Shown one piece after another: positions 2,582 through 37,946 of a stretch of DNA of 64,000 nucleotides (positions are counted from its first letter, which is position 1; each line of letters begins with the position of its first letter). The DNA comes from a virus: IMG/VR virus record IMGVR_UViG_3300027985_000891, positions 60,899 to 124,898 of that record. One strand, given 5' to 3'. Under the pieces are notes generated by a model that worked only from the letters and a program-made list of their open reading frames with translations, had not been told where the DNA came from and did no database searches. The position numbers were made by a program, and so were the translations under genes.

Positions 2582-3539
2582 TTTCCAATGCTTTCTCTAA
2601 TCGGATCATTACTTCCTGGTTCGCAGGATCGTTGAAATACTCATAAAGTTTACCATCAGTAGTCGCTATAGGTGTACCAAAGAGTAAGTAACCTTGCGTC
2701 TTATGCTTTTTCAATTTTCCAGTCGCCTTTGCTTTCTGGATCTTATGTCGGATGTTTAGTTCTTCGGTGTCTGCCTGACACATTTCAATGAATGCTTTTT
2801 GCTTGGTCAGTTTGGTACCTCCCATCATTGTCTTGTTGTCCTGGCTGGCATCCCATAGAACTTCATCTATAATACCGCGTTCAACACTTTCATTCGAGAT
2901 CAATCCCAGGGCGAGGGCTATCTTCATCTTCTTAGCATCGTTTAAAGCTGCGTACAACTTCGTTGCTTCAACAGAGAGCGTTCTCGCCTCTTTCTTGATC
3001 TGAGTGTCAATGTTCTTATCAGTGATCACATACTTCACTCGTTGAGATAGAACCGGATTAATCTTCTCACCTCCATGTTGGAAGTGATGATCCGCATTCA
3101 TTCCCGCAAGAATGATCTTGTCAATCGGTCGACTTTTATCTAAAGAAGCTTGACCTTCATACGTAATCACCCTCAATAAAGGATGACTGAAGAATGGATC
3201 GGCAGAGTCATAGACATCGGCAGAAGTAATGTATTCTTTAGCCCTTGGATGTTTATCCGGATACTTCAGTTTACATGCTACTACCAGTTTGTCCAATTCT
3301 GCTTGCTTCTTTTCATCCATCGTTTCATAACCCTTCAACATCCACATTCGGCGTGAAGCAGACCAATTAGGTCTAAACATTTGTCTTGAGTTCGGAAAGC
3401 GCTCGGATTTATATTCTCCGGTAGCGCGATCCTCCTCATGATTGTTTTCAGTGATCTTCTGAAACTGTGTCATTAGACCATTAATAGCCTTGAAGCGTTT
3501 GCTTCCCTGCCTTGGTCTGATCGTGATTAATTCTGCCAT
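2574..3539 (-). CDS. Structural operon protein, 321 aa, unknown
   Basis: Basic, helix-rich protein starting MAELITIRPRQGSKRFKAIN, 17 bases after the capsid gene and overlapping the next gene by 8 bases. It contains Lys/Arg-rich segments near residues 255-285 (RHKIQKAKATGKLKKHK) and no membrane segment. The basic patches could bind DNA or the acidic scaffold. Its place directly after the major capsid gene suggests a virion or assembly role. Function not recognised. Confidence 0.7.
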   Translation of the reverse strand: MAELITIRPRQGSKRFKAINGLMTQFQKITENNHEEDRATGEYKSERFPNSRQMFRPNWSASRRMWMLKGYETMDEKKQAELDKLVVACKLKYPDKHPRAKEYITSADVYDSADPFFSHPLLRVITYEGQASLDKSRPIDKIILAGMNADHHFQHGGEKINPVLSQRVKYVITDKNIDTQIKKEARTLSVEATKLYAALNDAKKMKIALALGLISNESVERGIIDEVLWDASQDNKTMMGGTKLTKQKAFIEMCQADTEELNIRHKIQKAKATGKLKKHKTQGYLLFGTPIATTDGKLYEYFNDPANQEVMIRLEKALEND

Positions 3540-6346: not shown

Positions 6347-8881
6347 TTATGTAGTCTTCATACCTTTGAGCCTAATCTCTTTAGCCTTCAAGCGCATTTC
6401 ATCTTCATGTTTCTTAAGATCAAGTGCACGGTCTTTCTCATTCTGAATAGCCTCATGTTGTATTTTGATCCGATCACGCTCCTGAGCATCATTAATCTGA
6501 TTAAGGTTAATATCATGCTGCTGGGCGTAGCGAGTAGAATTGATCTCTGCCAGGATCATATCCACTTGAGCTTTGTGGTTCATCTTTTGCATCTCGAACT
6601 GTTGCATCATCTCTTGCATCTGCTTTTGAATCTGTGCTTGTTGCTGCATAAGCATTTGCTGATTTTGCACCTCTTCCTGTCGTCGGTCTGCTGCACCCTT
6701 CTCTGCACGTTCTGCAATATTGAGAATCTCAGCCCCATTGTTAGCCCACATTAAGCGTATCAATTCAGGCATAGTGATCAAGCCATTTTGTACCATGGCT
6801 TGGGCTACACTCTTGACGTTCATGATGTTGTTGTAGTCATCTGTGGAATTCCGCACTTTGACAGCCAATTCTGCTGGGCTCATTAGCTGCCAGTCTATTT
6901 CCAGCTCTGCTACCGACATATCGTCCAGAATATACGTTCGGGCAAATTCATTATCCTTGAATGCTACCCGGGTTATCTTCAACATATAGTTGAGCAGATT
7001 CTCTACTACCTTATTATGTGTAGAATAGATATCTTCTGTTTGGTATGAGGACTGTACAATAGATTGTTGATTGTTACTTACCGCAACATACGGCGCAACC
7101 TGCCCCAGGCGGGAGGGGTTATATGACATGGATAAAGCTGCCTGCTGACGGATAAACTCCAGGTACTGTAGTCTACCGGCTACGTCTGACATAGTACTCA
7201 GATCCATATCTTTGAATATCTGAGAGTCAATACCCGGGTTCCAATCTTCATTGGTAGTATCGATCGGAGCGATCTTACCATACTTCATCATCATGATCCA
7301 TTTACCCCAGCTCCATTCTTTGGGTTTGGCATTCATGGTTGTAAGTAAAACCTTACCGACATCCGTGGCCTCCATTTCATGGATCTTAGCCATCTGTACA
7401 TTATATTTGTACTGCCATGGTTTTCCTAGATCAAGAGGCGCAACATTTTTTGCGTTACCAAATAACCTTCCGTACTCTACTCCTATATATGGAAGCTTCG
7501 TGTTCCATGGGTTATCAACAGAAGCGTATTGATAAGGTATGGGACGCTTGTTCAAATATATCGCATCTGTTGTTCCAATTTTATCAACTTCCCAAACCTC
7601 GGGGACCCAGATCACCTTTTGAGATATGTCCCCTTTCGATTGATTATACTTATAGCTCTCGTCCAGCCAGTAATGTTTGATACCTTCCTGAGTCACTCGG
7701 GTCAAATAGATTAGCTTGCGAAGTGACTTCCATACAATATGTACATGACGAATAGATGAGTATCCATCATCATCTGATCCAAACCGTTGATATATGGCTT
7801 TGACATATTCCTGTCCTGCTTTGGTCCGAATATCCGGAGAGTTTTCAAATATCTTTCCTCCAGAGTGAGCATCCGCAGCACTGACTTCTGCTACCAGGCG
7901 AGACTGCATACTATCATAGGCAATATTGCTATCGGCAAATGAGTTGAAGACACCATCCAGTTTAGCTAGATCTGCAGACTCCATGATATCTCCAAACTTA
8001 TTATGTAAGTCAGAGAGATTGATACGTTGCTCATATTTAGCCCATTCACCATCTTCAATGAAGTGTGTATTCCGGGAGGAAGAGCTCATAAACCCTACAG
8101 GATTAACCAGCTCGATATGTGGCATATTATGTCTGACCGTGACATAATAGATTTCTTCTCCGGAGATAATGCCGTGTTTAAAACCTTGATCAGTCAGATA
8201 CTTGATATCATAATGACTCATAGCCCAGTCAACTAACTTCTGTCCCTGCATCTCTGAAGGACTCTTGTAGTCCTTTCGCATATAGTTATCGATCTCATCC
8301 GGAGTCATTAACTTACTTTCCTGATCTACCTGGGACATAAACTGATCCTGTTCCTCCGGGGACAGTGAGTACGGATCTGTAATCTTAAGTCGGTACATCA
8401 CATCCATCATGGCTTGCTGACGAATGGGTTCAAGATACTTTTGACTTAAGTATTGCTGGAAGAGTTTATTCCGGTGCATTTTACGCATATTCATGCTGTA
8501 CCCGGAAGCATCAATAGCCAGTGGTTTTAATGGTCGACGTTGTTGTTCTCCCACCATAGCCTTAGCTATCTGATCAATAAGTGGTAAATGTTGTATTTCA
8601 TCATAGCCGGCACTAAGTCCTTCTTCCTCCAACTCCGCACCCATGGTCGGTACATAAGCTCGCATAGCCTCTTCACCTCTACCATTGTATAGATTATAGT
8701 TGAGTCGAAGTCTTTTCATACGTTCACTATCATAGTAATACCCATAATAGTGATCATAGAAATCGGCACACCGTTCAGCCCATTGAAATCCTTTTGCCTT
8801 CTTTTTAGCCCAGGTTAATCGCTGCTGTGGATATCCTATTTCCTGCAGTACTTCAGAGTCTATGTATTTATTAGTAGACAT
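6347..8881 (-). CDS. Portal protein, 844 aa
   Basis: Dodecameric head gate through which DNA is packaged. It sits immediately after the large terminase gene, with an 11-base overlap, and its length matches crAss-like portals. The N-terminal third contains the portal-type segment IAKAMVGEQQRRPLKPLAID near residue 105. The C-terminal 130 residues are a long Gln/Met-rich coiled coil (QNQQMLMQQQAQIQKQMQEM) ending in a charged tail, as in the portal barrel. Identification rests on gene order, length and these features together. Confidence 0.87.
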   Translation of the reverse strand: MSTNKYIDSEVLQEIGYPQQRLTWAKKKAKGFQWAERCADFYDHYYGYYYDSERMKRLRLNYNLYNGRGEEAMRAYVPTMGAELEEEGLSAGYDEIQHLPLIDQIAKAMVGEQQRRPLKPLAIDASGYSMNMRKMHRNKLFQQYLSQKYLEPIRQQAMMDVMYRLKITDPYSLSPEEQDQFMSQVDQESKLMTPDEIDNYMRKDYKSPSEMQGQKLVDWAMSHYDIKYLTDQGFKHGIISGEEIYYVTVRHNMPHIELVNPVGFMSSSSRNTHFIEDGEWAKYEQRINLSDLHNKFGDIMESADLAKLDGVFNSFADSNIAYDSMQSRLVAEVSAADAHSGGKIFENSPDIRTKAGQEYVKAIYQRFGSDDDGYSSIRHVHIVWKSLRKLIYLTRVTQEGIKHYWLDESYKYNQSKGDISQKVIWVPEVWEVDKIGTTDAIYLNKRPIPYQYASVDNPWNTKLPYIGVEYGRLFGNAKNVAPLDLGKPWQYKYNVQMAKIHEMEATDVGKVLLTTMNAKPKEWSWGKWIMMMKYGKIAPIDTTNEDWNPGIDSQIFKDMDLSTMSDVAGRLQYLEFIRQQAALSMSYNPSRLGQVAPYVAVSNNQQSIVQSSYQTEDIYSTHNKVVENLLNYMLKITRVAFKDNEFARTYILDDMSVAELEIDWQLMSPAELAVKVRNSTDDYNNIMNVKSVAQAMVQNGLITMPELIRLMWANNGAEILNIAERAEKGAADRRQEEVQNQQMLMQQQAQIQKQMQEMMQQFEMQKMNHKAQVDMILAEINSTRYAQQHDINLNQINDAQERDRIKIQHEAIQNEKDRALDLKKHEDEMRLKAKEIRLKGMKTT

Positions 8882-11204
8882 GGAATGGTTTGTTTTGCGT
8901 TATATATCTTCTTCTTCTAGCCAGAAACTGATCCAGGTCTTTCATAGGCTTGATATCTGGTTTGTGTTCAAATGGTACCATGCGCTCCTGAGATAGCCAT
9001 AATACCAGTAACTTGAGTGCAGATACATGGTCAAAGTTCTGCTCCCGATCATAAGCAATCAGCTCTGATAATAGTCTCGGGGAATAGAATTTATCTATAT
9101 TGGTTAGTACACGTCCATCCTCACTGGTACCCCAGGTTTCCAATAGCCACTGTCGAATAAGAATCTCACAGTGAATATTAAGGCTCTTACTCATATGCAC
9201 ACCTACATCATACTTCTTCCCTGGGTTCTTTAATGCAGCACTGATCGCTTCATACGGAGAGATCTGCAATAGATGTTGTTTATTCTTCATCTTACAATAC
9301 CGGATAAAATCAGGAATGTTATTTTCTACCAAGATTTTGGCATTGTAGTATGTAGCCAACTGAATGGCAATATCATGTATATCATGTACCTGATCATACC
9401 GGCCTATATACTCTGCTACAATGGCATCCTGTAGACCACCATTCCACTGACCATCCACAAATCCTTTGTGAACCAGGATCGATGCTAGTGAGGTACCCCC
9501 ATTATCATCCTTGACCGGGTCATAGACTACCTTGTAGAGTGATTTTCTAAATGAAGGATTAGGTATATCTTCCGGTGGATGTTCATAAATCACCACACAT
9601 CCGGCAATATCTCCTTTATAAGAATCCAGGTTAAGTGTAGTAATGGGTTTTATTTTACGATGTACATCTTCCTGCCATAGGACAGCATCGCCGGCTTTGT
9701 TCCAATGCAACGCTCCAATAGAAGCATGCAACGGAAACAGTTCATGACTGAGTACTGTTGCTTCTCGTTGTCGAAGCTTGGCAGTAGGAAACACATTGGC
9801 CGTAGGAGAAAGAAACATTTCTGAAGGCACAATAGGACGTGCCATCATATAACCATCCAGGGCGGAGGATGTGGCTGCTTTTTCTCTGAGTTTACGTTGA
9901 TTCAGTTCTTCAGCCAGAGCAGCATCGAGATCGGTATTGCCCAGTTTATCTTTAAAGTCATTATCCACATAATATGCCGGCAAGAAAAATCCTATAGGTT
10001 TGATTCTATTCTCCCAGTAATCCTTATATGGTAAAAAGTTATAGGCTTCCGGATCCTCAAAAACTATTTTGGATTCAGTGATCTTTTCCATGTTACCACC
10101 GGTACCTATGTAAAAGCTGGATCCAAACTTATTTCGTCGGATCTGACAGGTTTCATTGGAAGCATGTACATCTAATAGATTAGCTAACAGACCAACCTCT
10201 TCTATGACCATGACCGTTGGACGAGTACCTACCGCGGCTTGCGGGTTCTCTGAAGTATAAACACCATGCTGTATTTTAGTACCGGTACCACCAGTCAACC
10301 AGGTATTTCCTTCCTGATATTTATACTCATGACGATAAGGAGATTTAGAATTGTTAGGTGTAAGTGTTCCGGAATAGTTGTTATGAAAGTAACCCGGGAT
10401 GAATTCCTCACCGGTTCCCCAAGAACCATAATGTTTGGTCAACCATTCCTGAGTGGTTGTAAACTTGGTCAATAAATCAGAGGACTTGGATGCCAATGCA
10501 GAACCTACAAAGATTTCTACCGGTGCCGGTCTGTTCAAATAACTCTCATCAAAGTACTTCTTACCATAGAAGTTATACTCATGACCAATTACTGCATTTC
10601 CACAAAAGAAAGATTTACCAAAACCCCGGGATCCCAGGACAAAGAAGTTCAGTGCTTGATTTAGAAAATAAGGTCTTCCAAGAGGCTTTTCATGTGTCTG
10701 ATATAGATATTCACGAGCTTCTATATATTTTTTATAGCCCTTACCATCCGGTAATATGATACTATCCTTAATTCGATCCAGTATCCGGAGTTCTTTATCA
10801 GACAAGGAAAGGATTCCTTGATCCTCCAATTTCTTTACCAATCGATGAGAGGTGTATTCAGGATCATCTTCAAATCCACTGAAACCTCGACAGGTCAACC
10901 AACCATAACTCATCAACCATTCTACATCCCGTAGAAGTGGTCTGATCTTACGAGTCGTATTGCCTTTCTCATCTTCATCGTCAATGATGCAAAAGTTGGT
11001 ATAGTAATAGAGAAAGCCTGGCATGTAGCGCCAGCCTCCTTCTACACCATTGCTATCATTTCCCCACTTTCCTTCCAGACAGTAACGTTCCTGTTCCTCC
11101 CAATGACGTTGATAGGCGGTTGAATCCGGGTGAAACTCCGGATGGGAGTTTACCACAAAATCATCAATATTATATAGTACTGGAAATAGCCTTACAGCTT
11201 TCAC
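8871..11204 (-). CDS. terL: Terminase large subunit, 777 aa
   Basis: ATP-driven DNA packaging motor with nuclease domain. Walker A is GSRGFGKS near residue 193 and Walker B is VMVIEEVG near 331, with the acidic pair ready for catalysis. The second half holds the RNase H-like nuclease region, with YKVVYDPVKDDNGGTS near 560 supplying one catalytic aspartate and VSALKLLVLWLSQE close to the end. Its start overlaps the stop of the upstream 171-residue gene by 4 bases. Length is at the upper end of the family. This is the most secure call of the structural half. Confidence 0.94.
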   Translation of the reverse strand: MKAVRLFPVLYNIDDFVVNSHPEFHPDSTAYQRHWEEQERYCLEGKWGNDSNGVEGGWRYMPGFLYYYTNFCIIDDEDEKGNTTRKIRPLLRDVEWLMSYGWLTCRGFSGFEDDPEYTSHRLVKKLEDQGILSLSDKELRILDRIKDSIILPDGKGYKKYIEAREYLYQTHEKPLGRPYFLNQALNFFVLGSRGFGKSFFCGNAVIGHEYNFYGKKYFDESYLNRPAPVEIFVGSALASKSSDLLTKFTTTQEWLTKHYGSWGTGEEFIPGYFHNNYSGTLTPNNSKSPYRHEYKYQEGNTWLTGGTGTKIQHGVYTSENPQAAVGTRPTVMVIEEVGLLANLLDVHASNETCQIRRNKFGSSFYIGTGGNMEKITESKIVFEDPEAYNFLPYKDYWENRIKPIGFFLPAYYVDNDFKDKLGNTDLDAALAEELNQRKLREKAATSSALDGYMMARPIVPSEMFLSPTANVFPTAKLRQREATVLSHELFPLHASIGALHWNKAGDAVLWQEDVHRKIKPITTLNLDSYKGDIAGCVVIYEHPPEDIPNPSFRKSLYKVVYDPVKDDNGGTSLASILVHKGFVDGQWNGGLQDAIVAEYIGRYDQVHDIHDIAIQLATYYNAKILVENNIPDFIRYCKMKNKQHLLQISPYEAISAALKNPGKKYDVGVHMSKSLNIHCEILIRQWLLETWGTSEDGRVLTNIDKFYSPRLLSELIAYDREQNFDHVSALKLLVLWLSQERMVPFEHKPDIKPMKDLDQFLARRRRYITQNKPFHVY

Positions 11205-11716
11205 GTCCGCTTTTCGCGCGACGACCTCTGAGCACCTCCTCTAAGAACCGATTTGTTCATTTTGTCGATCATGTTTTTCCGGACCTTATCCAGGCCATCC
11301 CAGATCTTTGGCAGCTTATCCATAATACGGATATACTTAGAGAGATCTGAATCGTCGTCACTAATCGTGAGCGTCCGGAGTATTTCAGTAAGCTGATCGA
11401 GCTTCTCTATTTGTATGTTGTAAAGAAATTCCTCTTTCTCCATACAATACTTACCATAGGTTTTTCCCAGAGCGGTGAACTGTTCCTCATCGAACTCTGG
11501 CCAATAATTGGTCTTAACCTCTAGTAACTTATCTTTACGCGGCATCCGGAAGATCTTGGACTTAGGATCCTCTATCATATAGAGTGACCACATAATCTTA
11601 CTGGCTTCTTCTTTTCCTCGCGTATCTATTAATGCCTTGAACTCACTGATGTATTTGAGTTCAGGATTCTGTTTGAAAAAATCTTGATCGGGATCCCCTG
11701 TTACAAATGCACTCAT
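11201..11716 (-). CDS. TerL-upstream protein, candidate small terminase, 171 aa
   Basis: Charged, helical protein coupled by ATGA overlap to the large terminase gene. It contains FFKQNPELKYISEFKALID near residue 12, then ASKIMWSLYMIEDPKSKIFR, and a basic C-terminus (GGAQRSSREKRT). Crassvirales genomes carry a similar gene just before terL whose role is unproven. A small terminase or DNA-recognition role is suggested by position only. Confidence 0.75.
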   Translation of the reverse strand: MSAFVTGDPDQDFFKQNPELKYISEFKALIDTRGKEEASKIMWSLYMIEDPKSKIFRMPRKDKLLEVKTNYWPEFDEEQFTALGKTYGKYCMEKEEFLYNIQIEKLDQLTEILRTLTISDDDSDLSKYIRIMDKLPKIWDGLDKVRKNMIDKMNKSVLRGGAQRSSREKRT

Positions 11717-11717
11717 C

Positions 11718-12008
11718 TTATACCCGTTTTAGGCAAGGATCATTATCTGGACATGTTTCTTTACAGCAACAGAAGTCCGTACTACTATCCTTACAGTTAA
11801 TTTTTACTACCTTGTTAGGCTTAGTGCTCGTCAGACCCCAGCAGGGAGGACGGCATGGTACACAATCGTAAGTGTATTTCTTTAAAGGCATATTCGTTAC
11901 ATGAGCACAGCAGTTCCCTACTTTCCCACAGATTTCGTACACCTCCGGATACTCTAATGGTACTCGCTTTAATGGGTTCCGCTGTGCCTTGTATATATGA
12001 ATAGTCAT
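11718..12008 (-). CDS. Small cysteine-rich protein, 96 aa
   Basis: Begins at ATG 12008 (MTIHIYKAQRN); a GTG three codons earlier is a weaker start. Fifteen or so cysteines are concentrated in the last 70 residues (GNCCAHV, DCVPCRPPCW, DFCCCKETCPDNDPC), so a disulfide- or zinc-stabilised fold is likely. It follows two tiny membrane peptides and ends one base before the 171-residue gene begins. Function unknown. Compare the Cys-rich genes at 13281 and 17887. Confidence 0.65.
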   Translation of the reverse strand: MTIHIYKAQRNPLKRVPLEYPEVYEICGKVGNCCAHVTNMPLKKYTYDCVPCRPPCWGLTSTKPNKVVKINCKDSSTDFCCCKETCPDNDPCLKRV

Positions 12009-20833: not shown

Positions 20834-21187
20834 ATGTCTAAACTTGTCGGTAAGAAGGCTGACGCAGCTTTCAACGCTTTCGCATTCCGTTCTGAGATTA
20901 AGAAATCCAACGGAGATACGCAAGAAGTTTTCATGCTTGGGTTGTTCAAGGAACAACGTTACGATTCGAATGTCAGATCTGGTTGGATCCAACATTCTTC
21001 GCTTGTATCCGATCTCATGGACACGCTCTCATACGAGGAGCAAACCATTACTGGTACTGTCATGAAATCGGGCAAGCAGTTCGTTCTATACCTCGATCAG
21101 ATGCCTGCTGAGGTAGAGAATCGAGATGGTAAGCCTAGGTACGACTGTAGACCAGTTCGCATCGTTGGCTTCGAAATACCTGAATAA
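20834..21187 (+). CDS. Isolated soluble protein, 117 aa
   Basis: Unlike its neighbours: balanced soluble composition, stronger codon bias, its own upstream regulatory gap and its own strong terminator. N-terminus MSKLVGKKADAAFNAFAFRS, central beta-like strands (EQTITGTVMKSGKQFVLYLD). Likely an abundant early protein with an OB- or barrel-like fold, but no family recognised. Confidence 0.7.
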   Translation: MSKLVGKKADAAFNAFAFRSEIKKSNGDTQEVFMLGLFKEQRYDSNVRSGWIQHSSLVSDLMDTLSYEEQTITGTVMKSGKQFVLYLDQMPAEVENRDGKPRYDCRPVRIVGFEIPE

Positions 21188-21192
21188 AACCC

Positions 21193-21226
21193 CAGGGAGA
21201 GGAGAAATCCTCTCTCTGTTTTTTAT
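21193..21226 (+). terminator. Strong intrinsic terminator
   Basis: An 11-base-pair stem, CAGGGAGAGGA with TCCTCTCTCTG (one G-T pair), a GAAA loop, and a T-run at 21219-21224. The 5' arm contains the dispersed CCCAGGGAGA motif. Confidence 0.85.
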
Positions 21227-21266
21227 TGTGTGGGTGTGGCGGGTGGGATTATTCAATCAAACTAAC

Positions 21267-21428
21267 ATGACTAGAGAACAACTGGAACGATATTGGATGC
21301 TATATCAGCTTATAGGTAGTATAACTTCCTATCGTGGTGGTTATCTAAACTTGAGCACATGGCAAGCAGCTCGTGAATTACGTGACTTATGCGGTCATGC
21401 TATCTATTACTACACCCAGATGAAATGA
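21267..21428 (+). CDS. Microprotein-array member, 53 aa
   Basis: ATG 21267. Helices REQLERYWMLYQLIGSI and TWQAARELRDLCGHAIYYY separated by a Gly/Asn turn. The stop overlaps the next ATG. Confidence 0.55.
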   Translation: MTREQLERYWMLYQLIGSITSYRGGYLNLSTWQAARELRDLCGHAIYYYTQMK

Positions 21429-21589
21429 ACAGAACATACAAATACTACATACTCTTTAGGTCTTGCCGCAAGATCTTATGGGGAACACATTTCATTAACG
21501 TGGATCATGAGGTATGCTGGCAAACAGTTTATTCCATAACGGATATATTGGTCCGTGAAGATGCTAGACAGAATATTATTTGGCTCTAA
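21425..21589 (+). CDS. Microprotein-array member, 54 aa
   Basis: ATGA overlap with the previous gene. MNRTYKYYILFRSCRKILWG then WQTVYSITDILVREDAR. Basic N-terminal helix, amphipathic second helix. Confidence 0.5.
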   Translation: MNRTYKYYILFRSCRKILWGTHFINVDHEVCWQTVYSITDILVREDARQNIIWL

Positions 21590-21612
21590 GGCTATGTATA
21601 AACACTAACTAA

Positions 21613-21756
21613 ATGAACGATAAACCAAATAAAGTTTTGTTTGAACTGTATTTTGATATATTCCTGACTATGCATGAAGACACATTTCCAATAGGAGCTG
21701 GTATATACCTGTCACTATTTGGTATCATTGATCTGCTTGATAAACACAATAACTGA
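21613..21756 (+). CDS. Microprotein-array member, 47 aa
   Basis: KVLFELYFDIFLTMHEDTFP, then AGIYLSLFGIIDLLDKHNN. Same two-helix plan; acidic. Confidence 0.5.
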   Translation: MNDKPNKVLFELYFDIFLTMHEDTFPIGAGIYLSLFGIIDLLDKHNN

Positions 21757-21762
21757 TTAATA

Positions 21763-21873
21763 ATGAGCGAGTTATACTTCAATCTCTATGTGATCATGTA
21801 TGAATACTTCTATCCTTTAGAGTTTAATATCTACATGATCATAATCGACATCCTGGATGGAAACCTATTATAG
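21763..21873 (+). CDS. Microprotein-array member, 36 aa
   Basis: MSELYFNLYVIMYEYFYPLE then NIYMIIIDILDG; a shortened copy resembling the 47-residue neighbour (LYFDIF/LYFNLY, IIDLLD/IIDILD). Confidence 0.5.
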   Translation: MSELYFNLYVIMYEYFYPLEFNIYMIIIDILDGNLL

Positions 21874-22000
21874 ACTGTTTTCTGCGATACGTTACCACTA
21901 TCATTACCTTTATTGGATGTCCGATGCACAAATAGATGATGATACGTACTACTTACTTCATGATATCGTATTATTGTTAGATAATTATGTAAAACACTGA
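21857..22000 (+). CDS. Microprotein-array member, 47 aa
   Basis: METYYRLFSAIRYHYHYLYW, then YYLLHDIVLLLDNYVKH. Start overlaps the previous stop by 17 bases. Confidence 0.5.
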   Translation: METYYRLFSAIRYHYHYLYWMSDAQIDDDTYYLLHDIVLLLDNYVKH

Positions 22001-22087
22001 GTAAGAACGAGTTAAAGTGAAAAAGTATACCTAACCCCCTGATTTAGACCCTTTTGAACATACCCTCAAAACAAAAGTGCTATAATT

Positions 22088-22273
22088 ATGGTCTTTTATG
22101 ACAATCACTACAAATCCATACTTTCTTATTATTATCTCTATTTTACTAGAACCTTTAGATTATGTTATTGGAAAGCTGATATATTTTATAATGAAGAAAG
22201 AGATCGTTTTTTATACTATGCTCTATATGATATGATTCAGTTTATTAATACTTATCAAGTCCCAGGGAGATGA
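22088..22273 (+). CDS. Microprotein-array member, 61 aa
   Basis: After an 87-base gap without a start. SILSYYYLYFTRTFRLCYW then FLYYALYDMIQFINTYQVPG. Its end contains the dispersed CCCAGGGAGA motif and overlaps the next ATG. Confidence 0.55.
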   Translation: MVFYDNHYKSILSYYYLYFTRTFRLCYWKADIFYNEERDRFLYYALYDMIQFINTYQVPGR

Positions 22274-22401
22274 AGGTTTATATCCTCTTATTTAACTGTG
22301 ATATGTTCGCACATTCATATTATTTCTACTATAATGGCCACCCGGCAGATTATGTGTATGTCTCTTTACATAACCTATACGACTTACTAAAAGATGACTA
22401 A
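22270..22401 (+). CDS. Microprotein-array member, 43 aa
   Basis: MKVYILLFNCDMFAHSYYFY, then VSLHNLYDLLKDD. Overlaps by 4 and 8 bases. Confidence 0.5.
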   Translation: MKVYILLFNCDMFAHSYYFYYNGHPADYVYVSLHNLYDLLKDD

Positions 22402-22522
22402 ACTATATCCTCTTATCTTTCGATTGATCTGGATCAATTCTTATGTCTATTATGTATATGTTGATACTGAGGGCGAAGAGGTTTCTGATGCAGCACATAA
22501 ACTATACACTTTACTAAAATGA
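22394..22522 (+). CDS. Microprotein-array member, 42 aa
   Basis: MTKLYPLIFRLIWINSYVYY, then DAAHKLYTLLK, close in ending to the previous member (LHNLYDLLK). Confidence 0.5.
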   Translation: MTKLYPLIFRLIWINSYVYYVYVDTEGEEVSDAAHKLYTLLK

Positions 22523-22656
22523 CTCACTATCTTATCTATATTCGAACATTTCATGATCTTCTTATTCATGTAGAAACAGAGCATACCTTACGGGAACTTT
22601 CTCATGCTCTTTATCGTATCTATCTTCCTATCTATGATAACTATGTACAAGCGTAA
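22519..22656 (+). CDS. Microprotein-array member, 45 aa
   Basis: MTHYLIYIRTFHDLLIHVET, then RELSHALYRIYLPIYDNY. ATGA start overlap. Confidence 0.5.
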   Translation: MTHYLIYIRTFHDLLIHVETEHTLRELSHALYRIYLPIYDNYVQA

Positions 22657-22786
22657 ACCTTTCTATAAGCTCATCTTTCATATGTTGGACCTGTTTACTA
22701 ATAATCCTTATACTTATAATCCACCATATGAAGATGTCCGTAAAAGTGCTGTATTTTTGTTACATCATATCTACAATCATGAATGA
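22643..22786 (+). CDS. Microprotein-array member, 47 aa
   Basis: MYKRKPFYKLIFHMLDLFTN, then EDVRKSAVFLLHHIYNHE. Confidence 0.5.
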   Translation: MYKRKPFYKLIFHMLDLFTNNPYTYNPPYEDVRKSAVFLLHHIYNHE

Positions 22787-22949
22787 CTCTATCAACTATA
22801 CTTTACTCATCAATCTGACCCGCAAAGCTCTCAAATTGTATCTGGATGAGTACATGAAATTCGTTATTCCAGAGTCTCTACCAGCATTTATAGCCATGCA
22901 TCAACTGTATTATGTTTTACATTATGATCTACCCGATAACATACTCTAA
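22779..22949 (+). CDS. Microprotein-array member, 56 aa
   Basis: Ends AMHQLYYVLHYDLPDNIL, nearly the same as the end of the gene at 23351 (VYQLYHVLHYELPDVL), which proves paralogy within the array. Confidence 0.6.
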   Translation: MNDSINYTLLINLTRKALKLYLDEYMKFVIPESLPAFIAMHQLYYVLHYDLPDNIL

Positions 22950-22968
22950 GTTATTCAGACACTTCTAT

Positions 22969-23079
22969 ATGATTATTTATAACGATTCTCATAGTAGACT
23001 ATCAAGAGATGCAAATAGGACTTTATTTAGACTTGATATCTTACTACAAAGTACAAAGACTAACTTTCCTTTCACATGA
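22969..23079 (+). CDS. Microprotein-array member, 36 aa
   Basis: MIIYNDSHSRLSRDANRTLF, then RLDILLQSTK. Short, polar; ATGA overlap with the next gene. Confidence 0.4.
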   Translation: MIIYNDSHSRLSRDANRTLFRLDILLQSTKTNFPFT

Positions 23080-23222
23080 ACATTTATTATCTTATATGGA
23101 TCAGAAAATACTTCGCTGAGTATTGGCTTTTCTATCAGCTTCACTATGAGGTGTATAGCATTTTATATGAAATTATAACACTTCACGATGAATACTTTAC
23201 ATCACATGATCAGAAGTATTAA
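23076..23222 (+). CDS. Microprotein-array member, 48 aa
   Basis: MNIYYLIWIRKYFAEYWLFY, then VYSILYEIITLHDEYF. Confidence 0.5.
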   Translation: MNIYYLIWIRKYFAEYWLFYQLHYEVYSILYEIITLHDEYFTSHDQKY

Positions 23223-23358
23223 GGATTATCTGTTTCTTCTCTGGTTTGATACTAATGTGTATAATCCTGACTTCGACCAGCTCAGAACACTTCATTATCT
23301 TTGGGAAGAGTTCGCTTACCTTTCTAACCAATTTTATCGAATCAACTGTTATGTTTGA
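23188..23358 (+). CDS. Microprotein-array member, 56 aa
   Basis: MNTLHHMIRSIKDYLFLLWF, then LRTLHYLWEEFAYLSNQFY. Overlaps the previous gene by 35 bases and the next by 8. Confidence 0.5.
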   Translation: MNTLHHMIRSIKDYLFLLWFDTNVYNPDFDQLRTLHYLWEEFAYLSNQFYRINCYV

Positions 23359-23485
23359 TTTGATGCTAAGAGTTCTTACAACGTATTTGTATAACCAGTA
23401 TGAAGAACCATACTGTCTGCCAACAGTTCTATCTGTCTATCAACTATATCATGTTTTACACTATGAACTACCAGATGTACTTTAG
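23351..23485 (+). CDS. Microprotein-array member, 44 aa
   Basis: MFDLMLRVLTTYLYNQYEEP, then VYQLYHVLHYELPDVL; paralogue of the gene at 22779. Confidence 0.55.
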   Translation: MFDLMLRVLTTYLYNQYEEPYCLPTVLSVYQLYHVLHYELPDVL

Positions 23486-23621
23486 AAAGTTAAGATTGTG
23501 TTGCGGACATTATCTGCCATTATTGAATGTACATGATCACTTGTTGCTTATCCAGATATATAATGATATCGATTATCTGATTGCTATACACATGAGACAA
23601 TATGGTAAATATAATGCGTGA
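23475..23621 (+). CDS. Microprotein-array member, 48 aa
   Basis: MYFRKLRLCCGHYLPLLNVH, then IQIYNDIDYLIAIHMRQY. Basic. Confidence 0.5.
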   Translation: MYFRKLRLCCGHYLPLLNVHDHLLLIQIYNDIDYLIAIHMRQYGKYNA

Positions 23622-23787
23622 TGTTACAAGCTATTACAGCTATTACTTCATAGAGACCCCAGAGGGATGGATTCGTGATCTTCCCCAAGAATATTATGAT
23701 GTAGACAAAGTATGTAGAATGCTATATTTTATTCTTCATAATGAAGCATGTGCTTCTAAATTATCTTTCTATGATACTGAAGTTTAA
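23614..23787 (+). CDS. Microprotein-array member, 57 aa
   Basis: ATG 23614 overlaps the previous stop; an ATG at 23602 is an alternative. MRDVTSYYSYYFIETPEGWI, then DVDKVCRMLYFILHNEACA. Confidence 0.5.
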   Translation: MRDVTSYYSYYFIETPEGWIRDLPQEYYDVDKVCRMLYFILHNEACASKLSFYDTEV

Positions 23788-23986
23788 GATCTGTTTCCGG
23801 ATCATTCGCATGATGATTATTTATAATCATAAGTTTTTATTTTCTATGATAATAACATCTAGATACATTAATACTATTGGTAGTCTATCTTTTGAAGTAT
23901 CACCAGCTTTTCATCAAACTTATATTGAAGTACATAATGCATCAGTAAAACTCATTGACTGCCTCACTACACATTTTGAACCATGA
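23771..23986 (+). CDS. Microprotein-array member, 71 aa
   Basis: MILKFKICFRIIRMMIIYNH, a Ser-rich turn, then YIEVHNASVKLIDCLTTHF. Overlaps 17 and 4 bases. Confidence 0.5.
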   Translation: MILKFKICFRIIRMMIIYNHKFLFSMIITSRYINTIGSLSFEVSPAFHQTYIEVHNASVKLIDCLTTHFEP

Positions 23987-24141
23987 ATGAGAAGATTTAC
24001 ATCCAGTACTATTCCTGGTTTCTTAATATGATACTTCTCAAGGATACAGTAACCGGAGGAGGTGCTGTATTCTTCAAAGTACTTTCACTTAGAGACGATT
24101 TATCTCAAACAATTCAAAGAACTTATGGGCCTACCAATTAA
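23983..24141 (+). CDS. Microprotein-array member, 52 aa
   Basis: MNEKIYIQYYSWFLNMILLK, a Gly-rich turn, then VLSLRDDLSQTIQRTYG. Confidence 0.5.
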   Translation: MNEKIYIQYYSWFLNMILLKDTVTGGGAVFFKVLSLRDDLSQTIQRTYGPTN

Positions 24142-24301
24142 CTATTTACCTTCTTACTATGTCTGGCATGATACAGCAACTGTCTTTTTCTATTACTATG
24201 AGAATCGGTTTGACTTACAAGGACCAGAACTTACTGCTGTAGTTAATGCCATTTATAGTATGGGTCTTAGCGTGAGAATTCGCAAGCGCCGTTATGGATA
24301 A
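24125..24301 (+). CDS. Microprotein-array member, 58 aa
   Basis: Starts at ATG 24125. SYYVWHDTATVFFYYYENRF, then LTAVVNAIYSMGLSVRIRKR with a very basic end. Confidence 0.5.
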   Translation: MGLPINYLPSYYVWHDTATVFFYYYENRFDLQGPELTAVVNAIYSMGLSVRIRKRRYG

Positions 24302-24464
24302 ATATACTACAAATCTTAAACACTTTAAGACAGTTATAGATATACTTTATAAGTATTACTACTTTTATCTAAATCCTCATTCACGTATTCATATTGCCAT
24401 ATTTAGAATATCACTTAACTCCTTTTTAAATGAAAACAATAACATTAGATCATCAAACACCTGA
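24294..24464 (+). CDS. Microprotein-array member, 56 aa
   Basis: MDKYTTNLKHFKTVIDILYK, Tyr-rich centre, then IAIFRISLNSFLNENNN. Overlaps the next gene by 35 bases. Confidence 0.45.
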   Translation: MDKYTTNLKHFKTVIDILYKYYYFYLNPHSRIHIAIFRISLNSFLNENNNIRSSNT

Positions 24465-24630
24465 TGATACCATGGACATCCTGGAAAAGCTTAAAGCTAA
24501 TGGGCATACGGATGTTATTATTAGCTATAATGGAATAGCTAAAGTTTATAACATCGACGTTTATCTGGACATCCTAAACAACTACTTTGATGGACTTGAA
24601 AACATACAAGAGCATGCTGAACATGATTGA
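24430..24630 (+). CDS. Small acidic protein, 66 aa
   Basis: Differs from the array in composition: MKTITLDHQTPDDTMDILEK, then VIISYNGIAKVYNIDVYLD and an acidic end. Looks like a small soluble alpha/beta protein. Confidence 0.55.
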   Translation: MKTITLDHQTPDDTMDILEKLKANGHTDVIISYNGIAKVYNIDVYLDILNNYFDGLENIQEHAEHD

Positions 24631-24727
24631 GCAAATGATGTGGATAGCGACAAATAAGAGTGGATATCATGCTTGGAAAGCTTGCGATTCGCTACTTGTA
24701 ACTTTAAGAGAGCAGGTAAATATTTGA
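24614..24727 (+). CDS. Microprotein-array member, 37 aa
   Basis: MLNMIEQMMWIATNKSGYHA, then CDSLLVTLREQV. Ends inside an inverted repeat (arms 24709-24717 and 24757-24765). Confidence 0.4.
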   Translation: MLNMIEQMMWIATNKSGYHAWKACDSLLVTLREQVNI

Positions 24728-24749
24728 TAACTTTTGTAATACTATCAAC

Positions 24750-24902
24750 ATGAAAAACCTGCTCTTTTATTACTATATAATGCGTAGTATGAGATTATGT
24801 CTTTATATTGAATATGAGGATGGGAAACGTCAAGATATAGTCAAAGATGTTTGGTATCAATCTATTTTATTATCCAACTTTATATACCATGACCAAATTT
24901 AG
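24750..24902 (+). CDS. Microprotein-array member, 50 aa
   Basis: MKNLLFYYYIMRSMRLCLYI, then IVKDVWYQSILLSNFIYH. Its first codons lie in the second arm of the inverted repeat AGAGCAGGT/ACCTGCTCT, which could control its translation. Confidence 0.5.
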   Translation: MKNLLFYYYIMRSMRLCLYIEYEDGKRQDIVKDVWYQSILLSNFIYHDQI

Positions 24903-25050
24903 TCTTAAAGATCATACATATCTTCTTGGATGGGTCCGTGATCATTTAGCTCATAACATTATGAATGTGTATGAAGAAGAACATCCTTGGGTCTATGCAA
25001 TTTATTTAGTAGCTTGTATATCTAATCATGATCAATCTTACCCTTCTTAA
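24889..25050 (+). CDS. Microprotein-array member, 53 aa
   Basis: MTKFSLKDHTYLLGWVRDHL, then PWVYAIYLVACISNHDQ. Confidence 0.5.
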   Translation: MTKFSLKDHTYLLGWVRDHLAHNIMNVYEEEHPWVYAIYLVACISNHDQSYPS

Positions 25051-25285
25051 GTTATTAGTTAGCTCCTTTCTCCTGGGATCTGTATGTGATCCGGATAACT
25101 TTGATTTCGTCTGTACTACACCAGTTGGACTTCAAATCTTTGATGATCATATAAACGGTTGTCATGGAGCTAGATACATTCAGGTAACAAATGTTACTTC
25201 AGATTCTATAACATTATATGTTAAAGATAGTGTTGTTATCAACTCGTTTGAAGGTAACATCACAATTGAACTCCCATGCCATTAG
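25028..25285 (+). CDS. Small secreted protein, 85 aa
   Basis: Signal peptide MINLTLLKLLVSSFLLGSVC followed by a beta-rich domain with four cysteines (FVCTTPVG, INGCHGARYIQVTNVT, IELPCH), so export and disulfides are likely. Not of the array type, though it overlaps array genes on both sides (23 and 10 bases). Confidence 0.6.
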   Translation: MINLTLLKLLVSSFLLGSVCDPDNFDFVCTTPVGLQIFDDHINGCHGARYIQVTNVTSDSITLYVKDSVVINSFEGNITIELPCH

Positions 25286-25413
25286 AGACATATCTATCTA
25301 TCTTCAGAATGTTCAAAACAAGGATTGAAACATCTGCTGATACATTTGGATGCTACTATTGTACTCAGTCAATCATTAACGCATACTGGTATCATATAGT
25401 AAGATATAAGTAA
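25276..25413 (+). CDS. Microprotein-array member, 45 aa
   Basis: MPLETYLSIFRMFKTRIETS, then YYCTQSIINAYWYHIVRYK. Followed by a terminator. Confidence 0.5.
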   Translation: MPLETYLSIFRMFKTRIETSADTFGCYYCTQSIINAYWYHIVRYK

Positions 25414-25439
25414 TTTCCCCTTTTAAACACTCAGTCATT

Positions 25440-25463
25440 GGGAGGCCTTTGGGTCTCCCTTTT
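25440..25463 (+). terminator. Intrinsic terminator ending the main microprotein array
   Basis: GGGAG, loop, CTCCC at 25440-25459, then TTTT. A short stem but correctly placed after the stop at 25413. Confidence 0.65.
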
Positions 25464-25469
25464 ATAATT

Positions 25470-25634
25470 ATGAACGCTATAATATACTATCAACTTTTCT
25501 GTGCTGCTTATAACTTATTTGTTTCACATTATTGGCCTATAAGCTATAATTGTTCATCTATAGCTAACGATATTCAAGAGCTATCATGGAAATGTAGATA
25601 TCTGAAGTATCATGATATAACCACTATAAAATAA
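25470..25634 (+). CDS. Microprotein-array member, 54 aa
   Basis: ATG 25470. MNAIIYYQLFCAAYNLFVSH, then ANDIQELSWKCRYLKYHD. Confidence 0.45.
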   Translation: MNAIIYYQLFCAAYNLFVSHYWPISYNCSSIANDIQELSWKCRYLKYHDITTIK

Positions 25635-25640
25635 AAAAAC

Positions 25641-25814
25641 ATGAAAAAGACTATCGTATTCTTATGCTTTTGCATGATCATACTGATCTGTGCATTTGTT
25701 ATACATTTCCTGGAACCTATAATAGGACCAGGTGCAGCGATCTTTATTACCTTACCTGCTGCTGCAGTTATACTTATGAATGTAGCTATTAAAGTATATG
25801 ATCGCTATGGATAG
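25641..25814 (+). CDS. Small two-helix membrane protein, 57 aa
   Basis: Two hydrophobic segments, TIVFLCFCMIILICAFVIHF and AAIFITLPAAAVILMNVAI, with a charged end. Six bases after the previous stop. Possibly a membrane effector or holin; no family. Confidence 0.6.
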   Translation: MKKTIVFLCFCMIILICAFVIHFLEPIIGPGAAIFITLPAAAVILMNVAIKVYDRYG

Positions 25815-25870: not shown

Positions 25871-26488
25871 ATGAATATTTTAGCATCACGTCCCATGGAC
25901 GTTATCAAAAGAAGAATCGTATTAACAGGTACAAAGGACATCATGTTCGACCGGTACGCCGGCGACAACAACACAAAGTTGGAACCAGCTCAGAAGTTAT
26001 ACCTGAAGCCAGAACCGGACGGAGAGTTGCCCAGTATTATACTACCGGCGGCCAATTTTATGAGCTTCTTATCCGCCCATAATACCAACTCTGCTCCAAA
26101 GAGGCTGAGGGATGCAAGAAAATATAAGGCAATAGCCAATGCTTGTTTATCATTTGTAGATATTGAGGAAGAGCATATTCCTTTTATGAGGAATGGTAAA
26201 CCTATTAAGTTTGATAGGTTTAATGCTGAAGAGATCGATACTGTCAGTGGATGTTATATCCATCGTAGTGTAGCAAGATTGGAAAAGGGTATACCTAATC
26301 CAAAAGTACGACCAGTGCTTCCTAAACCATGGAGTGTTGAGTTTACGATGGTTATTCATCCAAATAAGGAAATCAAAGAAACAGAGATCTACAACCTTAT
26401 TTCTGAAGGAGGTATTGCAATAGGTTTAGGTACCTATCGTGGTGTCTTTGGAAAGTTTGTTGTAGAAGCTTGGGATGAAATAAAGTAG
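25871..26488 (+). CDS. Conserved-looking soluble protein, 205 aa
   Basis: Starts MNILASRPMDVIKRRIVLTG and ends GIAIGLGTYRGVFGKFVVEA, a Gly-rich C-terminal block I associate with uncharacterised phage proteins. A middle segment reads CYIHRSVARLEKGIPNPKVR. No nuclease or helicase motif. It is followed directly by the first pentamer tract in its 3' untranslated region. Confidence 0.7.
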   Translation: MNILASRPMDVIKRRIVLTGTKDIMFDRYAGDNNTKLEPAQKLYLKPEPDGELPSIILPAANFMSFLSAHNTNSAPKRLRDARKYKAIANACLSFVDIEEEHIPFMRNGKPIKFDRFNAEEIDTVSGCYIHRSVARLEKGIPNPKVRPVLPKPWSVEFTMVIHPNKEIKETEIYNLISEGGIAIGLGTYRGVFGKFVVEAWDEIK

Positions 26489-27290
26489 GCAAGGTATGGA
26501 GGGGCTCTGATCGGTGTGGAGAGGAGGGGCGATGCAAGACGCTGCACTGCATAAGATAACTCTACCTGGGAAACTGGGTAGAGTTTTTTATTATAAACAT
26601 ATGTGCTTGGTTGAGCTTGGATCGGAAAGGAGTGGCAATGTAAGGATAGGCTCGGAAATGATAGGCAAGGATAGCTTTTTACCCAAAACTAAAAATATAA
26701 TCAATGCTAGGCTCGGCACGTCTCTGACTGGCCCTTCCTGGCCCTGCCTGGAGGGGCGGTGCTATGCTTTGATAGGCAAGGAATGGTTTTTACCCTGAAA
26801 CTGAAGATATAACGCGTAAGTGTGAGGAAGTGCTAGGCCCTGACAGGCGAGTCTCGGAGTGGATGGGATTGGTAAGGATTTGCTAGGCAAGATTTTTATA
26901 CCTAAAACTAAAAATATACTAAGAATAACTTGGATAGTCACGGACTGGACTGGAGGGGATTTGCTAGGACAGGCGGTGCTAGGATGGGATTGGCGAGGAT
27001 GGGCACTGAAAGGTAGTGAAAGGAGAGGCTATACAAGGCAAGGCTTTTACCCAAAACTAAAGATATAATACTCAGAAACATTGGCCGGGATGGGCATGGA
27101 TGGTCAAGGATGGGACTGGAGTGGAGGTGATAGGCACTGCAAGGATTGGTTTACCCAAAACTAAAGATATATTTTAGGCGGATCCAGGCTGGGTACTGCC
27201 CGGACCGGCTGCGATAGGAGTTGCCCGGATGGGAGGGGAGAGGCTCTGCAAGGAAAGGTCTTGCTTTGCTAGGCAAGGTTATATTATCGT
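26486..27290 (+). repeat. Degenerate pentamer (NNKGH) array with A/T spacers
   Basis: Seven G-rich tracts (26486-26550, 26602-26676, 26708-26787, 26819-26893, 26930-27044, 27081-27150, 27175-27279) divide exactly into 13, 15, 16, 15, 23, 14 and 21 pentamers. By my count about 107 of 117 have G at position 4 and none has G at position 5; positions 1-2 vary freely. Tracts 2 to 6 are each followed by TTTTACCCAAAACTAAAGAT or a near copy, then ATA-rich sequence. Tract 1 is followed instead by a terminator. No coding frame spans it sensibly, since a period of 5 is out of step with codons. Function unknown. Confidence 0.9.
26560..26590 (+). terminator. Intrinsic terminator after pentamer tract 1
   Basis: CTCTACC (26560-26566) pairs with GGTAGAG (26577-26583), followed by six T. 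It would end the transcript of the 205-residue gene and leave tract 1 in its 3' untranslated region. Confidence 0.75.
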
Positions 27291-27311
27291 TGTAACTAAA
27301 TAACTTGTTAT

Positions 27312-30511: not shown

Positions 30512-31534
30512 ATGAAACACTTTTTGTTCATTTCAGTATTCTTATGTGTAATAGCTGATATCTATTCACAACAATGTTTTGTAACAGACTTCGAATATCA
30601 GTTCTATGTACCACCTGATCATAACCATCAGACTGATAGAGCATTACATACTCACTGTCTAACGATTTTTGCCGTAGTAGACTACTTTACTTATCTTGAT
30701 TTTAATGGCAATGAGCCGGCAATAGTACAATGGGTAGAAGATAACTGGAGTAATGTAAAAGAGGTCTTTGCTATTGAAAATGTTAGTGTGGATGTATCAG
30801 CTATTCACATTTATACAGAACCGGATTGGATCACATTGGGTACCTATAATAATATTCAAGAAGTACTTTATGATTTTGGTGGTTTCATTAAAGACGATGT
30901 CAATGGACGCTTCAAATGTATGATGACCACCTATGAATGGGGAGGTGGTATTGGTTGGGTAGGAGGATATAATACTCCTCGTAAACCGGTATACAATCAG
31001 AGTGGCTTATTAGGATACTATGGCGCATACAATGTGTGTGGTAACTTATCTAAAACAGTTACTGATTATCCTGCTTATTCATGGAATACAAATGTACTTG
31101 CTCATGAACTGGGACATAACCTTGGACTTGGACATACCCACGATGGTATATGGGGTCCTAATAATGATATGAGAGTTGACGATTGTGCAGGTAATCCTAT
31201 GACACCGGTTATTATGCCTATTGAATATAGTACTGCTATGAGTTATTGTCATCTTACATCTCATGGTATTGATCACACCAAAGGATTTGGTTTCTATCCT
31301 GGTGAACTTATGCGAGCTAACATCTTTGCTACTCCTATGTTGGAGATAGTCGATGGTACCTTAATTCTTCAAGGCCTTCTTCAAGGTTATGAGTATCAGG
31401 CTTCAGAGATTATTATTCCTAATGGTGGAAACAGCGCAAACTATTATCTTACTTTGAGAGCAGATGAAGTTACTATCGAAAATAACTTTATAGCTTATCC
31501 AACTTTTCAAATTTATCCCTCAGTGTGTAATTAG
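30512..31534 (+). CDS. Secreted zinc metalloprotease (metzincin, M12-like), 340 aa
   Basis: Signal peptide MKHFLFISVFLCVIADIYSQ, then a propeptide-like region. The zinc site is HELGHNLGLGH near residue 198 (HExxHxxGxxH), with a Met-turn candidate TAMSYC near 242, which together define a metzincin. Reprolysin-like proteases of this form are common in Bacteroidetes. For a phage it could act outside the host at release, or degrade surface layers. It stands 16 bases after the HAD-like gene; likely acquired from a host. Confidence 0.85.
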   Translation: MKHFLFISVFLCVIADIYSQQCFVTDFEYQFYVPPDHNHQTDRALHTHCLTIFAVVDYFTYLDFNGNEPAIVQWVEDNWSNVKEVFAIENVSVDVSAIHIYTEPDWITLGTYNNIQEVLYDFGGFIKDDVNGRFKCMMTTYEWGGGIGWVGGYNTPRKPVYNQSGLLGYYGAYNVCGNLSKTVTDYPAYSWNTNVLAHELGHNLGLGHTHDGIWGPNNDMRVDDCAGNPMTPVIMPIEYSTAMSYCHLTSHGIDHTKGFGFYPGELMRANIFATPMLEIVDGTLILQGLLQGYEYQASEIIIPNGGNSANYYLTLRADEVTIENNFIAYPTFQIYPSVCN

Positions 31535-33899: not shown

Positions 33900-34016
33900 G
33901 CGCAGGTGGTGGAATTGGCAGACACGTTGATTTTTGAGGAGTCAATATCCTTTTATTTAAGGCGTTCTGTTTTCTAGCGACACGAGCGTTTGCAGGTTCG
34001 AATCCTGCCCTGCGCA
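33900..34016 (+). tRNA. Aberrant Leu-type tRNA, 117 bases
   Basis: Acceptor GCGCAGG pairs with CCTGCGC at the end, discriminator A. D arm GTG/CAC with GAATTGGCAGA is the Leu type. T arm GCAGG/CCTGC with TTCGAAT. The stretch between D and T arms is about 33 bases longer than in normal Leu tRNAs. Two anticodon arms are possible: TTGAT/GTCAA with a nine-base loop holding GAG, or GAGGA/TCCTT with loop GTCAATA holding CAA. The rest makes two extra hairpins (CCTT/AAGG and CGTTC/GAGCG). A small intron or an enlarged variable arm would explain it. Confidence 0.7.
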
Positions 34017-36953: not shown

Positions 36954-36974
36954 TTAGCTTTGTTAAAAAAGCTG

Positions 36975-37946
36975 ATGGAAAATTTATTTAGTGATGACCG
37001 AGCGGAAACTCCACCATATGTAGTGCTGGATGATGCTCCTATAATGCCATTCAGTCAGACGATTGACTGGGGTCTTCAACAAATGAGAATAACCGAGCTC
37101 CACTCCCTGGGGCTTACAGGACAGGGAATCAAAGTAGCTGTCTTGGATACTGGAGTAGATACAGATCATCCTGATCTAAAAATAACAGATGCTCTTGACT
37201 TTACCAGATCCGGAACTGTAGAAGATACAGTAGGTCATGGTACACATGTAGCCGGTATCATAGCAGCACAAGGAAATGAACAAGGAACTTTAGGAGTAGC
37301 ACCTGGTGTGAATATCTATTCTTATAAAGTATTAGCAGATGGTAGTGGTAATCTGGTGGATGTGGCCAATGCTATTAAGCATGCTGCAGATAATGGTATT
37401 GATGTTATCAATATGTCATTGGGATCACCTTCTAATGCTGCTTACTTGGAACAAGCATGTTCTTATGCTGCTTCAAAAGGAGTAATTATTGTTGTGAGTT
37501 CTGGAAATTCCGGAAAAGAGCAGAAGTTTTATCCTGCCAGTTACTCGGCATGTTATTCAACTGGAGCTTCAAATATACATAAAGCCATTAGTGGTTTCTC
37601 TTCATTTACTGACGCTCTTGAATGGGCTGCACCAGGTGAACGAATCCTTTCAACATACTTAAAAGGTGGCTATGCCGTTCTTTCAGGTACTTCTATGGCT
37701 GCTCCATTTGCTACCGGTTGTGTAGCTTTAATGAAACAAGCTGGTGTTAGGATGGAATACAATATACTAACCCAATCCACGGATGATATTCTTACCCCTG
37801 GGTTTGATAAGAAAAGTGGATATGGTATTATTAACCCTCATAAAGCCATTAGTGATTTAAAAAAACCCGAACAACCTAGCCCATCACTCAAAGACGAGTT
37901 ACTAAAGATGAAGGCGCTGCTAGATCACATCCTTGAGTTGGTCTAA
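36975..37946 (+). CDS. Subtilisin-like serine protease (S8), 323 aa
   Basis: Complete triad: VAVLDTGVDTDHPDL (Asp near residue 60), VGHGTHVAGIIAA (His near 89) and LSGTSMAAPFATG (Ser near 239), with the oxyanion Asn in SSGNSG near 178. No signal peptide, so it acts in the cytoplasm or inside the virion, perhaps in head maturation or host protein cleavage. A TTG at 36960 would add five residues. The C-terminal 40 residues are a helical extension. Confidence 0.92.
   Translation: MENLFSDDRAETPPYVVLDDAPIMPFSQTIDWGLQQMRITELHSLGLTGQGIKVAVLDTGVDTDHPDLKITDALDFTRSGTVEDTVGHGTHVAGIIAAQGNEQGTLGVAPGVNIYSYKVLADGSGNLVDVANAIKHAADNGIDVINMSLGSPSNAAYLEQACSYAASKGVIIVVSSGNSGKEQKFYPASYSACYSTGASNIHKAISGFSSFTDALEWAAPGERILSTYLKGGYAVLSGTSMAAPFATGCVALMKQAGVRMEYNILTQSTDDILTPGFDKKSGYGIINPHKAISDLKKPEQPSPSLKDELLKMKALLDHILELV

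Follow-up and report, generated by a model that had tools for sequence, protein, structure and literature searches.

Organization of the locus

At the locus described here, a gene for a 205-aa protein (vipr) is followed, downstream and on the same strand, by seven tracts of phased pentamers (Table 1), with the features named after the parts of VIPR (Viral Interference Programmable Repeat), a phage-against-phage system reported in a preprint (bioRxiv 2026.04.26.720920; PMC13142463). The locus lies in a 64,000-nucleotide window (positions 60,899 to 124,898) of the IMG/VR record IMGVR_UViG_3300027985_000891, whose phage nature is seen from a terminase and a major head protein, and which has a GC content of 37.7%. 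The terminase is nearest to that of Cellulophaga phage phi14:2 (36%), while the head protein matches those of Flavobacterium and Bacteroides phages. Judged by its sequence, the source is a crAss-like phage, and its host is probably a Bacteroidota bacterium, since the terminase and head protein both have their matches in phages of such hosts. Elsewhere in the window, a run of short ORFs upstream of vipr (21100-25650; 60-85 aa) is Y/H-rich, with similar endings, and resembles a set of diverged paralogues. Moreover, the phage encodes a reprolysin-like (M12) metalloprotease (30512-31534) and a subtilase (S8; 36960-37946), and Rfam, but not ARAGORN, calls a tRNA (33900-34016; 117 nt, 42.6 bits) whose stretch from anticodon arm to T arm is unusually long.

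Table 1. Features of the vipr locus (window coordinates).
Feature	Position	Strand	Basis
vipr, 205-aa RAMP/Cas7-like protein, putative guide-RNA partner	25871..26488	+	PHROG 4652, PDB 36pp profile match, AF2, Foldseek
vrRNA 1 (predicted), 13 pentamers, starts at vipr stop codon	26486..26550	+	periodic HMM
Hairpin then U run after vrRNA 1, intrinsic-terminator-like	26551..26591	+	fold -19.2 kcal/mol, z -6.4
vrRNA 2 (predicted), ~15 units	26601..26674	+	periodic HMM
3' tail of vrRNA 2, TTTTTACCCAAAACTAAAAATATAAT	26675..26701	+	alignment
vrRNA 3 (predicted), 17 units	26702..26786	+	periodic HMM
3' tail of vrRNA 3	26787..26812	+	alignment
vrRNA 4 (predicted), 16 units	26813..26891	+	periodic HMM
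3' tail of vrRNA 4	26892..26918	+	alignment
vrRNA 5 (predicted), 23 units, longest	26929..27045	+	periodic HMM
3' tail of vrRNA 5	27045..27069	+	alignment
vrRNA 6 (predicted), 14 units	27080..27149	+	periodic HMM
3' tail of vrRNA 6	27150..27171	+	alignment
vrRNA 7 (predicted), 19 units	27184..27278	+	periodic HMM
Diverged tail of vrRNA 7, retains TATC..AACTAAATA	27279..27303	+	alignment

Tracts 2-6 pass directly into a near-identical sequence, TTTTTACCCAAAACTAAARATATA, and because this is contiguous with the tract before it and lies at a variable distance from the one after, we regard it as the 3' tail of the upstream tract. Its TACCY..AAACT core recurs in alignable form behind every one of the seven tracts, near identical in five cases, with UACCC..AAACUAAA as the predicted RNA tail; in the hairpin after tract 1, the corresponding UACCU..AAACU motif is found on the loop side. 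For the tails of tracts 2-6, no fold beyond that of shuffled sequences was predicted. Most tracts close with AGGM-AAGG right before the tail, which suggests that their last units are constant and non-addressing.

Periodicity of the pentamer tracts

A periodic HMM (hard-EM) resolved seven in-phase tracts of 13-23 units each between positions 26486 and 27278, amounting to about 117 pentamers. Across these, position 3 is mostly G or T (85 and 30, respectively), position 4 is G in 107, and position 5 is A, C, or T (51, 58, and 9) and never G, while positions 1-2 are near random, with an entropy near 2 bits. In fact, the model reproduces the tally of an earlier sequence-only reading of the window, which had counted 117 units in tracts of 13-23, with about 107 Gs at position 4 and none at position 5. 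Of the NNKGH form proposed there, the K, the G, and the exclusion of G from position 5 stand, though position 5 is more narrowly M (A or C in more than 90%) than a general H, and the consensus of the array is NNKGM.

The period of 5 that this reading had put forward is likewise borne out, with the autocorrelation of G at lag 5 reaching 0.429 as against 0.00 (sd 0.036, maximum 0.129) in 1000 dinucleotide shuffles, or 12 sd above. Exact runs of at least 4 units hold 93 pentamers versus a mean of 0.65 in the dinucleotide shuffles, and the longest such run is 18 units versus a shuffle maximum of 6. The pattern is confined to the + strand of the array and does not recur in the rest of the 124,898-base record. 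As had also been argued from the sequence, a period of 5 fits no reading frame, and a coding role is thus rejected, with the ORFs that overlap the array being due to chance. Simple tandem expansion was discarded as well, since the units are not copies of each other at positions 1-2. A G-quadruplex was also rejected, because T occupies position 3 in over a quarter of the units and because a quadruplex would not call for the constraint seen at position 5.

Related arrays and the adjoining protein family

Before VIPR was known to us, IMG/VR was searched for exact runs of fourteen KGH units, which gave at least 120 stretches; joined by four relatives of the gene beside the array and by our own locus, these yielded at least 95 loci with non-tandem arrays, a count biased by the query pattern. 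The first two positions of their units vary widely, and the last three keep a fixed triplet, mostly GGC or GGY. When all nearby ORFs were clustered, one family of ~203 aa was present in 77 of the 95 array loci among the matches listed, at a median of 9 nt from the tract and, in 74 of the 77, on the array strand; the next commonest family near the arrays reached nine loci among the matches listed. Having been blind to the preprint, this recovery of a protein from a repeat independently supports the link between the two drawn in PMC13142463. NNGGY tracts also adjoin the gene in named phages with the family (wV8, LittleE, Trine, and LESphi2). BLAST searches against named phages, with either the array or the window vipr as query, found no match.

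Apart from spurious overlapping frames, vipr is the only gene that the window shares with 17 loci of its clade, which include IMG/VR contigs, Paraburkholderia and Candidimonas genomes, and Methylococcaceae and Patescibacteria MAGs. Because nothing else is held in common, the gene and its array appear to move as a unit between unrelated phages.

Identity of the vipr product

The vipr product is assigned to PHROG 4652, as are all 53 of the 53 aligned family members. A profile of the 53-member family matched PDB entry 36pp ('SUSP1 Vipr protein') with an E-value of 1e-36. So that this signal would not be borrowed from other family members, the search was also run with the profile of the window's own clade (A2) alone (1.6e-7) and with the window protein alone (0.001), for which 36pp was the sole PDB match. 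Moreover, profile-profile alignment (hhalign) with the Vipr of named phages gave an E-value of 4.7e-12. The AF2 model of the 205-aa protein has a pLDDT of 95.6, and its best Foldseek matches are Csm/Csm3 RAMP chains (best E-value 7.7e-6); on this model the match to the RAMP fold is clear but loose, as the TM-score is only ~0.45. Taken with the 36pp profile, these matches describe the product as a Vipr, that is, a RAMP homolog with an RRM core and a G-loop. Four residues (Gly181, Gly185, Arg190, and Gly194) are invariant in the 53 family members. The reading frame in the window is intact, and its protein departs at two residues (Ile16 and Asp115) from positions that are 90% conserved in the clade.

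Assignment to VIPR

According to the preprint (PMC13142463), VIPR consists of a phage-encoded Vipr and of vrRNAs with 9-16 YNNGG repeats and a constant 3' tail, whose NN pairs recognize double-stranded DNA by a 1-nt-skip rule so that transcription is repressed, the targets being competing phages, satellites, and prophages. The triplet is given as GGY 'or a related consensus' (fig. S17), and an accessory gene, vap, is typical though not universal (PMC13142463). In our locus, the array occupies the intergenic region flanking vipr of a phage genome, its tandem pentamers have the period and the variable NN, and the TACCY..AAACT tail follows all seven tracts. Against this fit, three tracts are longer than 9-16 units, and strict GGY is departed from at position 3 (T in 27% of complete units) and position 5 (A in 44%). 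Also against it, no vap was recognized and the searches for a natural target described below gave none.

A different account would have the tracts serve as sites for a TRAP-like ring protein that binds phased triplets with 2-nt spacers and regulates an mRNA, in which case NN would carry no information. A TRAP site is made up of (G/U)AG triplets with 2-3 nt between them. While a period of 5 and a keto first base are common to both, and the arrays adjoin the partner gene on the mRNA strand, the partner is a RAMP with homology to SUSP1 Vipr and no TRAP ring, the central base is G rather than A, and in SUSP1 it is the identity of NN that sets the DNA target (PMC13142463), all of which makes this account very improbable.

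We hence regard the locus as a VIPR system of a crAss-like phage with seven predicted guides, at a probability of roughly 0.93. VIPR is then the counterpart that the sequence-only reading had believed to be lacking for its pentamer code, and the idea of an addressable array, one of several raised there, was the right one, as in VIPR the address lies in the two variable bases of the pentamer (PMC13142463). What the analysis itself establishes is the arrays, the protein family with its fold, the linkage of gene to array, and the common 3' tail. By analogy with the preprint's other members, from which expression of the RNA, binding, the 1-nt skip, and repression are all taken, Vipr would polymerize on each of the seven transcribed tracts with one subunit per five nucleotides, holding the KGM triplet and presenting the two variable bases for pairing. 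Reading by a tract of n units would follow the pattern NNxNNxNNx... on double-stranded DNA, each step passing over one base, and once bound the filament would keep a gene of a competing phage or satellite from being transcribed. That a divergent member with a relaxed triplet works like other VIPRs, and that the array architecture carries this function over to a crAss-like phage, is what we infer from the same analogy.

Two observations made in other phages concern parts of the system. In Escherichia phage wV8 (L216), 58-bp direct repeats (1550-1607 and 2943-3000; DR_4 in GenBank) lie on both sides of vipr and probably represent the 3' tails of vrRNAs in a Felixounavirus VIPR. A second family, of ~161 aa and with the motif HxxFxWDxxxAAxxxRxxQAR, is found within ~15 nt of arrays in nine loci (e.g., L103 (rc) 11386-11868 and L033 (rc) 8572-9042) and is a candidate for vap. 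In the window no vap was recognized, the small neighbors of vipr having no Pfam match, and by elimination the locus could be of a vap-less type in the preprint's scheme.

A relaxed triplet

Among the 112 complete units, the triplets are GGA (39), GGC (28), TGC (18), TGA (8), GGT (7), and others (12). A keto base fills position 3 in 110 of them (A or C in the other 2), G fills position 4 in 104 (93%; A in 2), and 103 have an amino base at position 5, where G never occurs. A maximum-likelihood tree of 73 Vipr proteins places the window inside a clade with good support (99/97), in which the six other members have strict GGC, and KGM occurs in no other of the 73 loci compared, among the matches listed. 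A Paraburkholderia relative has GGC/GGA (GGM) triplets. As only Ile16 and Asp115 depart from conserved positions of the protein, the triplet shift has no obvious explanation in its sequence.

With GGA as the commonest triplet, the array might be thought a sponge RNA for CsrA/RsmA or an anti-Shine-Dalgarno sponge, as the sequence-only reading had guessed. This we find scarcely credible, because nearly all relatives of the array have GGC, others have GGY, and GGA is near zero among them; the array is constantly linked to the RAMP gene vipr; and CsrA, which binds hairpin loops, would not require that as many as 23 units stay in strict 5-nt phase, with the GGAs here found in no hairpin context. 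A decayed VIPR, in which ancestral GGC arrays are eroding in an AT-rich genome and have ceased to function, would agree with the strict GGC of the nearest relatives and with the nature of the changes (T for G at position 3, A for C at position 5) at 37.7% GC. Yet the drift is limited to these two substitutions, with position 4 still G in 93%, A or C at position 3 in 2 of 112, and no G at position 5, while phase is kept over 23 units and the vipr frame is intact with its two departures from the 90%-conserved clade positions, and so decay seems improbable. Since decay alone would also give transitions, which are nearly absent, the sequence argues that constraint on the triplet persists.

The relaxed triplet would distinguish what the protein truly recognizes (keto, G, amino) from what is simply kept constant in GGC systems. 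We would suggest, though only as a tentative and rather doubtful proposal, that Vipr here has shifted from GGY to a keto-G-amino triplet, and that the VIPR triplet alphabet is evolvable. Other arrays differ in triplet as well. The VIPR array L128 (13439-13789) is almost pure NNGGA (94%), with a constant 23-nt linker between tracts, and L104 (1009-1206) is pure NNGGT. In two viral contigs, L027 (4414-4740) and L127 (rc; 5795-5868 and 6953-7029), NNTGC arrays lie opposite the vipr strand (GCA on the vipr strand); their vipr products both belong to PHROG 4652, and these are possibly divergent or different-triplet VIPRs. Were the proposal true, then together with the GGA-only, GGT-only, and TGC arrays several mutually orthogonal VIPR codes would exist, which would let competing phages use guides without cross-loading.

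Search for guide targets

When the seven guides were compared with their own 124-kb record, a 1-nt skip gave nothing above other skip lengths, and for 299 guides of relatives plus the seven of the window against 1.4 Mb of DNA, a skip of 1 was no better than 0, 2, or 3. Exact 8-9-unit seeds from guides 1, 4, 5, 6, and 7 had 0-33 matches in IMG/VR, none extending convincingly. Guides of the Paraburkholderia and Candidimonas relatives, searched in 121 and 201 genomes, gave one 3-mismatch match, fewer than the reversed-pattern control. Under the published skip rule these searches gave no target beyond chance. The negative results weigh little, since the searches had no guide with a known target as positive control, the seeds were exact, and five of the seven guides were used in IMG/VR.

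Read with a 1-nt skip, units 4-11 of guide 1 (26499-26533) spell GSSVEG[DE][NK], a conserved tape-measure motif (GSSVEGDN). The match occurs in 22 IMG/VR contigs, in frame and with the skip at the wobble base, though the three 5' units mismatch. We rejected this motif as the target of guide 1 and take the match as chance on an abundant motif.

Comparison with known systems

TRAP (MtrB) sites resemble the array in their phased triplets and 2-nt spacers, but the protein is unrelated, the triplet is (G/U)AG, and the spacers hold no address. With the backbone RAMPs of class 1 CRISPR-Cas (Csm3/Cas7), the likeness is in the fold, the glycine-rich loop, and the proposed coating of RNA by one subunit per step; here, however, the period is 5 instead of 6, and the guide would read DNA non-contiguously. 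Moreover, the window has no CRISPR array of 20-50-nt direct repeats, the tandem periods found being 3-18. VIPR has itself been proposed as the ancestor of CRISPR effectors.

The closest likeness is to VIPR of Escherichia phage SUSP1 (type II; 36pp). As there, the phage encodes a RAMP-fold protein of ~200 aa next to tandem pentamers in which two bases are hypervariable, the locus holds several guides, and a constant 3' tail follows. Our locus differs in having KGM in place of GGY, guides of 13-23 rather than 9-16 units, no recognizable vap, and arrays only downstream of vipr; and whereas the tail in the SUSP1 clade is structured as a pseudoknot, the tail here has no predicted structure. The main text of PMC13142463 makes no mention of crAss-like or Bacteroidota phages. 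VIPR is a newly reported form of RNA-guided DNA recognition, and a member with seven guides in a crAss-like phage of a probable Bacteroidota host would widen its range.
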